Part shown: one piece after another, positions 41,320 to 44,640 of the stretch
Position numbering within the stretch: position 1 is the first letter of the stretch
How the letters are laid out: each line of letters starts with the position of its first letter
Origin: a candidate division KSB1 bacterium
Lineage (GTDB): Bacteria > Zhuqueibacterota > Zhuqueibacteria > Residuimicrobiales > Krinioviventaceae
Direction: 5' to 3'
DNA length: 64,000 nucleotides
Assembly (NCBI GenBank): GCA_034521575.1
Contig: JAXHMJ010000005.1
Coordinates: forward strand, 310,001-374,000
The notes under the pieces: model-generated
What the model saw: the letters and a program-made list of their open reading frames with translations, nothing else
Told to the model about the DNA's origin: nothing
Databases searched by the model: none
Position numbers and translations under genes: made by a program

Positions 41320-41636
41320 TCGTACCCGAATGTAATCAGCCTGCAAAATCGCCGTAAATCATCTCGAACGATGGAGGCAAACCAATGGTCGATTGACGAA
41401 ATAGCGCTCCACGGATCGTTTCCGCGACAGTCCGGCAGTTGTTCACTGTCGGCCCAGCAGTACCCCTCGCACCGCTTCGGCCCGGTTCCCTTTCCCGTAC
41501 GGTACTTTTGAACCAGGCGCCTCTATTTCAGAATAGAATATAGGAATTTTCAGAATTTATTTCAAGGATAAAGTCAAAGTCAGAAAGCCTGAATATCAAA
41601 AGCACGGCGCAGCAGTTTATATTCCCCCTCGCCACC
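41320..41636. other. Intergenic region upstream of the lysine operon
   Basis: Contains the presumed promoter of the M20-lysC operon. I see no lysine-riboswitch architecture or strong terminator, and no supported gene. The repeat cluster begins at 41637. Confidence 0.5.
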
Positions 41637-42640
41637 TGATGTCGCCCCTTCAGGGCTAAAAAAACATATCCCCGATTCCCGGGGCGTTGCCCCGGGCTGG
41701 CCTACATCGCCCCGTTGGGGCTGGGATTAAGCCGCCAGGGTTGTAAAAATGAAGGAGATCAATCCGACTGCCCAGGCGTTTTTCGCATGTCCCCATCCTT
41801 TGCTCGTTCCCGCACAATACCAGCCCTGAAAGGGCGGTATACAAAAGCCCCGGGCAGCGCCCGGGGATCAATCAAAAACACCAAACCCAAGCCCTGAAGG
41901 GGCGACATCAGGCGCAGTGAACGACAAAACCCGTACATCACCCCCCGATAGATGAACAACAAGCGCCTAGTGTTCACAAAACCCCACCCCATGACCTCAC
42001 CGCACATCACCAGCCCTGAAAGGGCGGTATACAAAAGCCCCGGGTAGCGCCCGGGGATCAATCAAAAACACCAAACCCAAGCCCTGAAGGGGCGGCATCA
42101 GGCGCAGTGAACGACAAAACCCTTACATCACCCCCGATAGATGAACAACAAGCGCCTAATGTTCACAAAACCCCATCCCATGACCTCACCGCACATCACC
42201 AGCCCTGAAAGGGCGGCATACAAAAGCCCCGGGCAGCGCCCGGGGGATCAATCAAAAACGCCAAACCCAAGCCCTGAAGGGGCGGCATCAGGCGCAGTGA
42301 ACGACAAAACCCTTACATCACCCCCGATAGATGAACAACAAGCGCCTAGTGTTCACAAAACCCCATCCCATGACCTCACCGCACATCACCAGCCCTGAAA
42401 GGGCGGTATACAAAAGCCCCGGGCAGCGCCCGGGGGATCAATCACAAACACCAAACCCAAGCCCTGAAGGGGCGGCATCAGGCGCAGTGAACGACAAACC
42501 CCACATACATCACCCCCCGATAGATGAACAACAAGCGCCTAGTGTTCACAAAACCCCATCCCATAACCTCACCGCACATCACCAGCCCTGAAGGGGCGGC
42601 ATCAGGCGCAGTGAACACAAAATCAACCCGATGAGCAAAG
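41637..42640. repeat. REP-rich tandem-repeat cluster 1
   Basis: A leader (41637-41818) with GCCCCTTCAGGGC, CCCGATTCCCGGGG and GCCCCGTTGGGGC palindromes, then units of about 190 bases starting at 41820, 42010, 42199, 42389 and 42582; the last is cut short at about 42622. Each unit holds GCCCTGAAAGGGC, CCCCGGGC-AGC-GCCCGGGG and GCCCTGAAGGGGC hairpins joined by a spacer around GATGAACAACAAGCGCCTAG. Reading frames in all units are fortuitous. Near-duplicate of cluster 2. Confidence 0.9.
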
Positions 42641-42678
42641 ACTTTTTCTCACAGAAATTACAGTGCAAAATTAAGCTG

Positions 42679-43131
42679 CTAATCCCACACATATCTCTCA
42701 TCATAATCAATATTGTATTTTTTCAAAAGATTGATGTATTCAGCCTGGTAACTGGCTTTACGGTGATGAATTTTCTGATTTGAAATATAGTTTTTAACCA
42801 AATCAATATGAGATCGACCAATGGAAAAAGCACCATAACCGTTTTGCCAATAAAACCCCAGATAACCACGCCCCTTGCTTTTAATCCATTTTGATGAGGA
42901 TCTTTTAACCATACCAACCACCTCACTCATCGAATGTTTTCGCGACAAATAAAACAAATTATGGATGTGATTCCAATGGCCATTGATTGCTAAAAGTGGA
43001 GAATCACATTCTCGAAATACTTTGGCCATATAGGGATAAAGCTCAAGTTCAATATCAGGATCAATCAGGGTTTTTTGATTTTTTGTACTAAATACAAGAT
43101 GAATGTATACTTTGGATAGACTTTGTGGCAT
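42679..43131 (-). CDS. RAYT-like (REP-associated) Y1 transposase
   Basis: A 150-residue HUH/Y1 endonuclease: VYIHLVFSTKNQKTLI opens the fold, NGHWNHIHNLFYLSRKHS carries the HIH metal motif, and SHIDLVKNYISNQKIHH the nucleophile Tyr. The Tyr and HIH are intact. Placed exactly between two clusters of REP-like palindromes, the arrangement seen for transposases that move or maintain REP sequences. ATG at 43131 has AGGAGGGAG seven bases upstream and is preferred over 43233. Activity on the flanking palindromes is inference. Confidence 0.85.
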   Translation of the reverse strand: MPQSLSKVYIHLVFSTKNQKTLIDPDIELELYPYMAKVFRECDSPLLAINGHWNHIHNLFYLSRKHSMSEVVGMVKRSSSKWIKSKGRGYLGFYWQNGYGAFSIGRSHIDLVKNYISNQKIHHRKASYQAEYINLLKKYNIDYDERYVWD

Positions 43132-43306
43132 ATTTCTCCCTCCTGTTATTTGAGAACCCCTTTTTATTGAATTATCAATATAACAAATTATCAACAATTC
43201 CCCAAATAATAATCGCAGATACGCGAATATCATCTTTCATTTCAAAAACACCTTTAAATTCCTATCACTGGTTAATCAGGGTTACAAGATTCCAAAGGCT
43301 GGTTGA

Positions 43307-44640
43307 TGTCGCCCCTTCAGGGCTAAAAAAACATATCCCCGATTCCCGGGGCGTTGCCCCGGGCTGGCCTACATCGCCCCGTTGGGGGTTCGAATGGTGC
43401 CGCGGGGGTGATACATCGAGATTTATCTAATCTAGCAGCCCAGTATTTAACCCCACCCCATGCCTCATCCCACTGGCAACCGCATATCATCCTTTCAGTC
43501 CTGAAAAGGCGTATAAAAACACCAACGCCTTCGAATCCTAAACCTGCGCATGCCATACCCCTTTCGCCACCTGATGGCGCCCCTTCAGGGCTAAAAAAAA
43601 CATATCCCCGATTCCCGGGGCGTTGCCCCGGGCTGGCCTACATCGCCCCGTTGGGGCTGGGATTAAGCCGCCAGGGTTGTAAAAATGAAGGGGGATCAAT
43701 CCGACTGCCCAGGCGTTTTTCGCATGTCCCCATCCTTTGCTCGTTCCCGCACAATACCAGCCCTGAAAGGGCGGCATACAAAAGCCCCGGGTAGCGCCCG
43801 GGGGATCAATCAAAAACGCAAAACCCAAGCCCTGAAGGGGCGACATCAGGCGCAGTGAACGACAAACCCCACATACATCACCCCCCCGATAGATGAACAA
43901 CAAGCGCCTAGTGTTCACAAACCCCCATCCCATGACCTCACCGCACATCACCAGCCCTGAAGGGGCGGCATACAAAAGCCCCGGGCAGCGCCCGGGGGAT
44001 CAATCAAAAACGCCAAACCCAAGCCCTGAAGGGGCGACATCAGGCGCAGTGAACGACAAACCCCATACATCACCCCCGATAGATGAACAACAAGCGCCTA
44101 GTGTTCACAAAACCCCATCCCATGACCTCACCGCACATCACCAGCCCTGAAAGGGCGGTATACAAAAGCCCCGGGTAGCGCCCGGGGGATCAATCAAAAA
44201 CACCAAACCCAAGCCCGGAAGGGGCGGCATCAGGCGCAGTGAACGACAAACCCCACATACATCACCCCCGATAGATGAACAACAAGCGCCTGAGGTGTTC
44301 ACAAACCCCCACCCCATGACCTCACCGCACAACACCAGCCCTGAAAGGGCGGTATACAAAAGCCCCGGGCAGCGCCCGGGGGATCAATCAAAAACGCCAA
44401 ACCCAAGCCCGGAAGGGGCGGCATCAGGCGCACTGAACGACCAAACCCCACATACATCACCCCCGATAGATGAACAACAAGCGCCTAGTGTTCACAAAAC
44501 CCCATCCCATAACCTCACCGCACATCACCAGCCCTGAAAGGGCGGCATACAAAAGCCCCGGGCAGCGCCCGGGGATCAATCAAAAACACCAAACCCAAGC
44601 CCTGAAGGGGCGGCATCAGGCGCAGTGACCCCATTACACA
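43307..44640. repeat. REP-rich tandem-repeat cluster 2
   Basis: Begins with a second, and at 43568 a third, copy of the leader found at 41637, including the shared TTAAGCCGCCAGGG segment (43672-43770 matches 41721-41836). Five ~190-base units start at 43757, 43951, 44141, 44335 and 44528 and show the same three hairpins as cluster 1. The clusters are so alike that one likely arose by duplication of about 1 kb. No gene in this region. Confidence 0.9.

Follow-up and report, generated by a model that had tools for sequence, protein, structure and literature searches.

Organization of the Locus

The locus lies within a 64,000-nucleotide stretch of a candidate division KSB1 genome, referred to as the window, and comprises an HUH/Y1 transposase gene flanked by two arrays of ~190-bp units, each consisting of four full units and one partial unit (Table 1). 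The leader and array of cluster 1 align to cluster 2 with 95.3% identity over 986 bp, and Tandem Repeats Finder reported periods of 190 (96% match, score 1432) and 194 (94%, score 1558), both far above chance. The remnant closing cluster 1 measures 41 bp, and the full units of cluster 2 are ~190–194 bp long. Inverted copies of the three-hairpin core, termed leaders, were found at three positions. Leader 2, which adjoins the transposase start, is identical to leader 1 (100% over 84 bp), and in the window the upstream three-hairpin end is located ~170 bp before the transposase start codon instead of ~25 bp.

An earlier sequence-only reading had described two near-duplicate arrays around the transposase, and these were recovered here, together with its three hairpins, which form the H2-H1-H3 core of the units in both clusters. 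Its count of five units per cluster holds if the partial last unit is included, the number of full units being four each, whereas its duplicated leaders proved to be three copies instead of two and to represent inverted members of the core family. Open frames of 80–146 aa cross the repeats (43538–43975 (-), 41759–42061 (-), and plus-strand frames in the arrays). The repeat-borne frames tested (80–146 aa) gave no match in Pfam and none above cut-off in NCBIfam; the warning that such frames could mislead annotation was therefore fair, and the open frames within the arrays are likely spurious gene calls.

Beside the left array, a lysine riboswitch (RF00168, 93.8 bits) was detected at 41394–41533 on the minus strand, upstream of a minus-strand cluster encoding M20 peptidase, aspartokinase, dapB, and dapA, representing a lysine/diaminopimelate operon.

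Table 1. Features of the transposase locus and its two repeat arrays (positions refer to the window).
Feature	Position	Strand	Evidence
Leader 1, inverted core	41637..41726	+	R1 match 41678-41722 (+); alignable with unit cores
Leader 1 hairpins	H3 ~41644-41656; H1 41678-41696; H2 41709-41721
Array 1 unit 1 (first ~92 bp three-hairpin core, remainder spacer)	41820..42009	-	RF01687 41822-41866 (-), 42.7 bits; blastn 96%
Array 1 unit 2	42010..42198	-	RF01687 38.4 bits; 97%
Array 1 unit 3 (reference unit)	42199..42388	-	RF01687 43.9 bits; core ssDNA fold z = -2.4
Array 1 unit 4	42389..42581	-	RF01687 42.7 bits; 95%
Array 1 truncated unit (H2 start fused to H3 end, H1 gone)	42582..42622	-	Unit positions 72-111, 97.5%
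Transposase gene, TnpA-Y1 subclass 1.2, 150 aa	42679..43131	-	Pfam Y1_Tnp 2.5e-24; IS608 TnpA 3.5e-4 (phmmer)
Leader 2, inverted core 5' of transposase gene, mirrors downstream array	43304..43395	+	R1 matches 43292-43324, 43345-43389 (+)
Leader 3, inverted core, head of array 2	43572..43662	+	97.8% to leader 1 over 186 bp; R1 43614-43658 (+)
Array 2 unit 1	43757..43950	-	RF01687 39.6 bits; 95%
Array 2 unit 2	43951..44140	-	RF01687 43.3 bits; 98%
Array 2 unit 3	44141..44334	-	RF01687 38.4 bits; 93%
Array 2 unit 4	44335..44527	-	RF01687 42.7 bits; 95%
Array 2 last core, without spacer	44528..44628	-	RF01687 43.9 bits; 98% over 102 bp

Classification of the Transposase

The conserved start of the transposase is MPQSL, whereas a longer frame of 184 aa uses a non-conserved start. 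Its catalytic motifs are intact, as noted previously for HIH and the tyrosine: NHIH (H55, H57), WQ (95–96), Y115, and Q119 were all identified. The tyrosine motif YISNQKIHH follows the pattern Y-xxx-Q-xx-HH, which is also present in 22 aligned relatives; among these, H55, H57, W95, Q96, Y115, Q119, and H123 are invariant. The consensus HUH motif of the relatives is DHVH, the window protein having NHIH instead. The AlphaFold model of the transposase (pLDDT 79) matches the IS608 and ISDra2 transposases as well as the E. coli TnpAREP structure 4er8.

Tyrosine motifs of this enzyme family were divided into Y-xxx-Q (class 1), Y-xxx-NP (class 2, RAYT/TnpAREP), and Y-xxxx-Q (class 3) by Quentin et al. 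(2018, PMC6006769). Since YISNQKIHH is the subclass 1.2 signature, the gene falls outside the RAYT class; Q119 occupies the position at which the N of the class-2 NP motif stands. The remaining features of subclass 1.2, namely a DH[IV]H-type HUH motif together with WQ, a length of ~148 aa, and a low copy number, were likewise found. In the cited survey, this subclass is listed without REP and reported as not IS-like. The previous designation of the locus as a RAYT with REPs thus captured the arrangement, a Y1 transposase among palindromes present elsewhere, but not the class, given the tyrosine motif and the missing GTAG foot.

The gene is single-copy in the genome, and its nearest relative there is 39% identical. 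This second subclass-1.2 gene (L034, G000:C2:332277-332717) is of the MANTYTQ type and is devoid of three-hairpin ends. The clade of L034 carries other hairpins; in relatives such as L123, some of these precede ATGTTTATAG.

The Three-Hairpin Core and Acido-Lenti-1

Alignment of the genome copies revealed a conserved core of 92 bp (CCAGCCC...GACATCA) composed of three hairpins in the order H2-H1-H3, of which H2 and H1 together represent the Rfam family Acido-Lenti-1 (RF01687), a point missed by the earlier reading. RF01687 was found in all nine core-bearing units of the window, on the minus strand, with 38–44 bits compared to a gathering cut-off of 37. Read outward from the gene, the order is H3, H1, H2, so that the outer two hairpins are Acido-Lenti-1.

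The palindromes do occur elsewhere in the genome, and their absence there, which the earlier reading had named as a refutation, is thereby excluded: eight further sites on three contigs carry the core (genome size 5.26 Mb, five contigs). Only the 92-bp core is common to these sites, each of which has its own flanks and spacers; at one site (C5:469k), the H3 sequence is different and yet still pairing. Array periods at four loci were 190–194, ~190, 201, and ~232 bp. Since the spacer is repeated within each array and is locus-specific between arrays, the arrays have the appearance of local tandem duplication of the core together with neighbouring DNA. The proposal that the 190-bp period is the element was accordingly rejected, the element being the ~92-bp core and the remainder a locus-specific spacer duplicated along with it. 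Copies in the source genome are few, namely about 25–30 in about nine places, and the system may therefore be old or inactive there.

Pairing of the hairpins is conserved in the alignment of the named-locus matches, with 86.6% of cells paired and 12 out of 13 pairs changed on both sides. Double changes were counted in 229 cells compared to 53 in shuffles, a count that leans toward structure because helix 1 had been imposed on the model to which the aligned rows were fitted; the signal was abolished by sliding the register, and the shuffle and slide controls leave covariation that is not explained by this imposition. No GT[AG]G foot consensus was found in the palindromes. Among unpaired positions, conservation is highest for a CT immediately 3' of H1 (T in 99%; AG on the opposite strand) and for an A six bases beyond it (88%). 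Because cleavage by E. coli TnpAREP takes place at C|T beside its hairpin (PMC8266576), the CT beside H1 is the first candidate for a putative cutting place, by analogy with that enzyme.

Association with Subclass 1.2 Transposases across Phyla

To search for the element, a model (R1) was built from 29 Acido-Lenti-1 matches in the phylum of the window (KSB1), selected without regard to genes; its E-values are rough by construction. The flanks of 64 subclass-1.2 genes of KSB1 were searched, and 34 Y1 genes of other classes served as controls, including weaker, longer Y1_Tnp matches that are expected to be class 2. An R1 match within 300 bp was detected for 28 of the 64 subclass-1.2 genes and for none of the 34 controls. 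The named-genome scan yielded 80 further genes, of which 73 remained after removal of KSB1 duplicates. The element was located within 300 bp of 53 of these 73 genes from other phyla, and on both sides in 23, the scanned loci being biased to the branch of the window since the query was a protein alignment of closer relatives. Record titles of these loci name Acidobacteriota, Planctomycetota, Verrucomicrobiota, Bacteroidota, Desulfobacterota, Nitrospinota, and Chlorobi/Ignavibacteria. In ten genomes from several phyla, the element was found beside 21 of 22 subclass-1.2 genes and beside none of eight other Y1 genes (p = 1.5e-6).

Around these genes, the element is usually mirror-imaged. In total, 112 out of 143 R1 matches fell within the 12% of the flank closest to the gene. 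The nearest upstream copy was in minus orientation relative to the gene in 34 of 40 cases (median distance 60 bp), and the nearest downstream copy was in plus orientation in 30 of 36 (median 55 bp). At least seven loci without an R1 match showed the full plan H2-H1-H3-gene-H3-H1-H2 by folding; they escape R1 because their stems have changed in sequence.

When mapped on a tree of 151 subclass-1.2 proteins, the element turns up in all parts, with the exception of one clade of ~20 in which it is rare. A sub-branch of ~20 KSB1 genes is mostly without recognisable ends of this type, as is the second copy in the source genome (C2:332277). In 6 of the 33 KSB1 genomes with the repeat, no subclass-1.2 gene was seen, some of the assemblies being incomplete. 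Taken together, there is little doubt about the association of the element with the subclass-1.2 transposase.

At two loci, L154 (G058:C6) and L155 (G057:C59), the contigs stop within the region encoding the transposase C-terminus, beside Acido-Lenti-1. This suggests a multi-copy gene that breaks the assembly in the genus concerned.

Dispersal and Turnover of the Element

A census with R1 in 25 named genomes, for which 150 candidates per genome were scored so that copy numbers are lower bounds, revealed at least 149, 120, 107, and 91 copies in the four richest genomes. Many copies form '-..+' pairs ~150 bp apart, in the same order as the ends of the gene. Eleven copies in a Desulfobacteraceae genome (G103) align as H2-H1-H3/H3-H1-H2 and have mostly unrelated flanks. 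Such a gene-less six-hairpin mirror element equals the bracketed unit minus its gene and corresponds to the REPINs of classical RAYT systems.

Presence and absence of the element were observed between two genomes of the same genus. G076 carries a six-hairpin element between two genes where G074 is ~200 bp shorter and has no R1 match; the flanking DNA is 85–87% identical, and this difference was found at both of the two sites with orthologous flanks. Divergence of the intergenic DNA prevents the junctions from being drawn. Insertion in G076 is the likely event at the two sites, and loss in G074 may be the alternative. Another sister-genome comparison (L332) provided no orthologous site. The genes neighbouring the window locus are not together in relatives of the family, and an empty-site comparison is therefore unavailable for the window. 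Among 72,556 plasmid records, only two full-length relatives of the transposase with >40% identity were present, and no filled/empty pairs were found.

In G103, the six-hairpin copies at six loci (L296, L298, L300, L301, L302, and L310) adjoin a common outer repeat, TAGACATTATCGGAAATAA, or its reverse complement, and in most of these loci it flanks both sides. This outer repeat is perhaps a second miniature element enclosing the six-hairpin copies. A further locus of the same genome (L305, G103:C222:26317-27157) contains tandem H1-H2 units with a period of ~60 bp in at least four copies, without H3.

Comparison with Known Systems and Alternative Explanations

The locus shows the arrangement of a REPtron, in which the palindromes on either side of a Y1 gene also occur scattered over the genome. 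Canonical RAYT/REP systems, with a class-2 TnpAREP and GTAG-tagged palindromes, share this logic, since a low-copy HUH-Y1 gene is accompanied by flanking, dispersed palindromes, often in inverted pairs and with up to >100 per genome (PMC6006769, PMC8266576, PMC3116915), and the fold of the modelled transposase agrees with that of 4er8. A RAYT/REP system in the strict sense is nevertheless improbable here, because the reading is contradicted at the motif level by Y-xxx-Q-xx-HH in place of Y-xxx-NP, the palindromes have no GTAG foot, and each end combines three hairpins in ~92 bp instead of one hairpin of 20–40 bp. Moreover, none of the control Y1 loci, class 2 being expected among them, had the element near the gene. 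The system was found here mainly outside Proteobacteria. An ordinary IS200/IS605 insertion sequence with decayed ends would account for the enzyme family, its fold and catalytic residues, and the score of the transposase with the NCBIfam IS200/IS605 model (60 bits, cut-off 55). This explanation appears more doubtful still: IS608 and ISDra2 are multi-copy elements, often with tnpB, that have one small hairpin per end and not inverted copies, whereas the gene studied is present once instead of in several near-identical copies, its ends are inverted three-hairpin copies, relatives are nearly absent from plasmids, and subclass 1.2 is not regarded as IS-like.

It also had to be considered whether Acido-Lenti-1 is a functional ncRNA that lies beside transposase genes by chance or regulates them. 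Hairpins next to a gene could serve as a terminator or translation block, and the small hairpin, read on one of its strands, frequently shows C-UNC-G, a kind of loop that RNA favours. The complement of the UNCG loop is C-GNA-G, which is exceptionally stable in DNA; as the two are complements, the loop type does not support RNA and was rejected as evidence. An ncRNA is, in our view, as improbable as a canonical RAYT/REP system, since the orientation of the element is opposite on the two sides of the gene, gene-less mirror pairs exist, some genomes harbour >100 copies, and presence differs between sister species. RF01687 was introduced as a candidate ncRNA (Weinberg et al. 2010, PMC2864571), and its two-hairpin consensus is matched above the gathering score by nine units of the window; while Rfam keeps it as a candidate ncRNA, it represents here the outer two hairpins of a transposase-tied three-hairpin DNA element. 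According to a 2026 paper, the function of Acido-Lenti-1 is still little known, and control of protease genes by its hairpins is proposed there (PMC13298647). A literature search that covered few subscription journals found no publication joining RF01687 with a transposase.

With regard to the enzyme, the subclass 1.2 of Quentin et al. (PMC6006769) agrees with the present genes in motifs, length, low copy number, and Bacteroidetes hosts. That study gave it no REP and placed it for the most part in Cyanobacteria and Bacteroidetes. Here, a defined repeat brackets many members, and their hosts include Acidobacteriota, Planctomycetota, Verrucomicrobiota, Desulfobacterota, KSB1, and others. TIRtrons (Di Nocera et al. 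2013, PMC3733652) are similar in that inverted repeats lie on both sides of tyrosine transposase genes; some of these repeats are double palindromes, some recur within the genome, and cases from Acidobacteria are among them. The RAYT-like proteins of TIRtrons are said to keep the motifs distinguishing RAYT from IS200 transposases, and that article makes no link to Acido-Lenti-1 or subclass 1.2; single TIRtron cases described there may overlap with the present loci.

Proposed Mechanism and Implications

The locus is thus quite probably a REPtron-like system of mobile palindromes whose transposase belongs to class 1 (IS200-related) and is not a class-2 RAYT. Mobilisation by the subclass-1.2 enzyme would be the most likely mechanism, a reading that we consider probable. 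The gene is bracketed by mirror-image ends of three hairpins each, which would fold in single-stranded DNA such as the lagging-strand template. TnpA-Y1 would then bind the folded ends and cut beside the foot of a hairpin by means of its HUH metal site (H55, H57, and Q119) and Y115. Through rejoining of the strands, single ends and gene-less end-to-end pairs could be copied or moved to other sites. An insertion might subsequently be amplified in place with its neighbouring DNA, resulting in tandem arrays with a period of ~190–230 bp. The observations themselves cover the anatomy, the specific and mirror-image association across phyla, dispersal, high copy number, hairpin covariation, and presence or absence at two orthologous sites; cleavage of single strands, its position, movement driven by the transposase, and the origin of the tandem amplification are inferred.

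In the broader interpretation, which we favour with more reserve, Acido-Lenti-1 would not represent an RNA at all; it would be the end recognised by the enzyme of a second REPtron lineage with an independent origin. In that lineage, a class-1 transposase would have been domesticated into a repeat-spreading enzyme in many phyla, and some Acidobacteriota and Desulfobacterota carry >100 copies per genome. Two orphans are joined in this way, namely an Rfam "RNA" of little-known function (PMC13298647) and a transposase subclass for which no DNA partner had been reported (PMC6006769), and candidate enzyme-substrate pairs from many phyla are now available for direct in vitro testing. If the interpretation is true, regulatory-RNA annotations of these hairpins, such as the control of protease genes (PMC13298647), would need re-examination, and dispersal of the REP type would have evolved not only with class-2 RAYTs but also with a class-1 enzyme.
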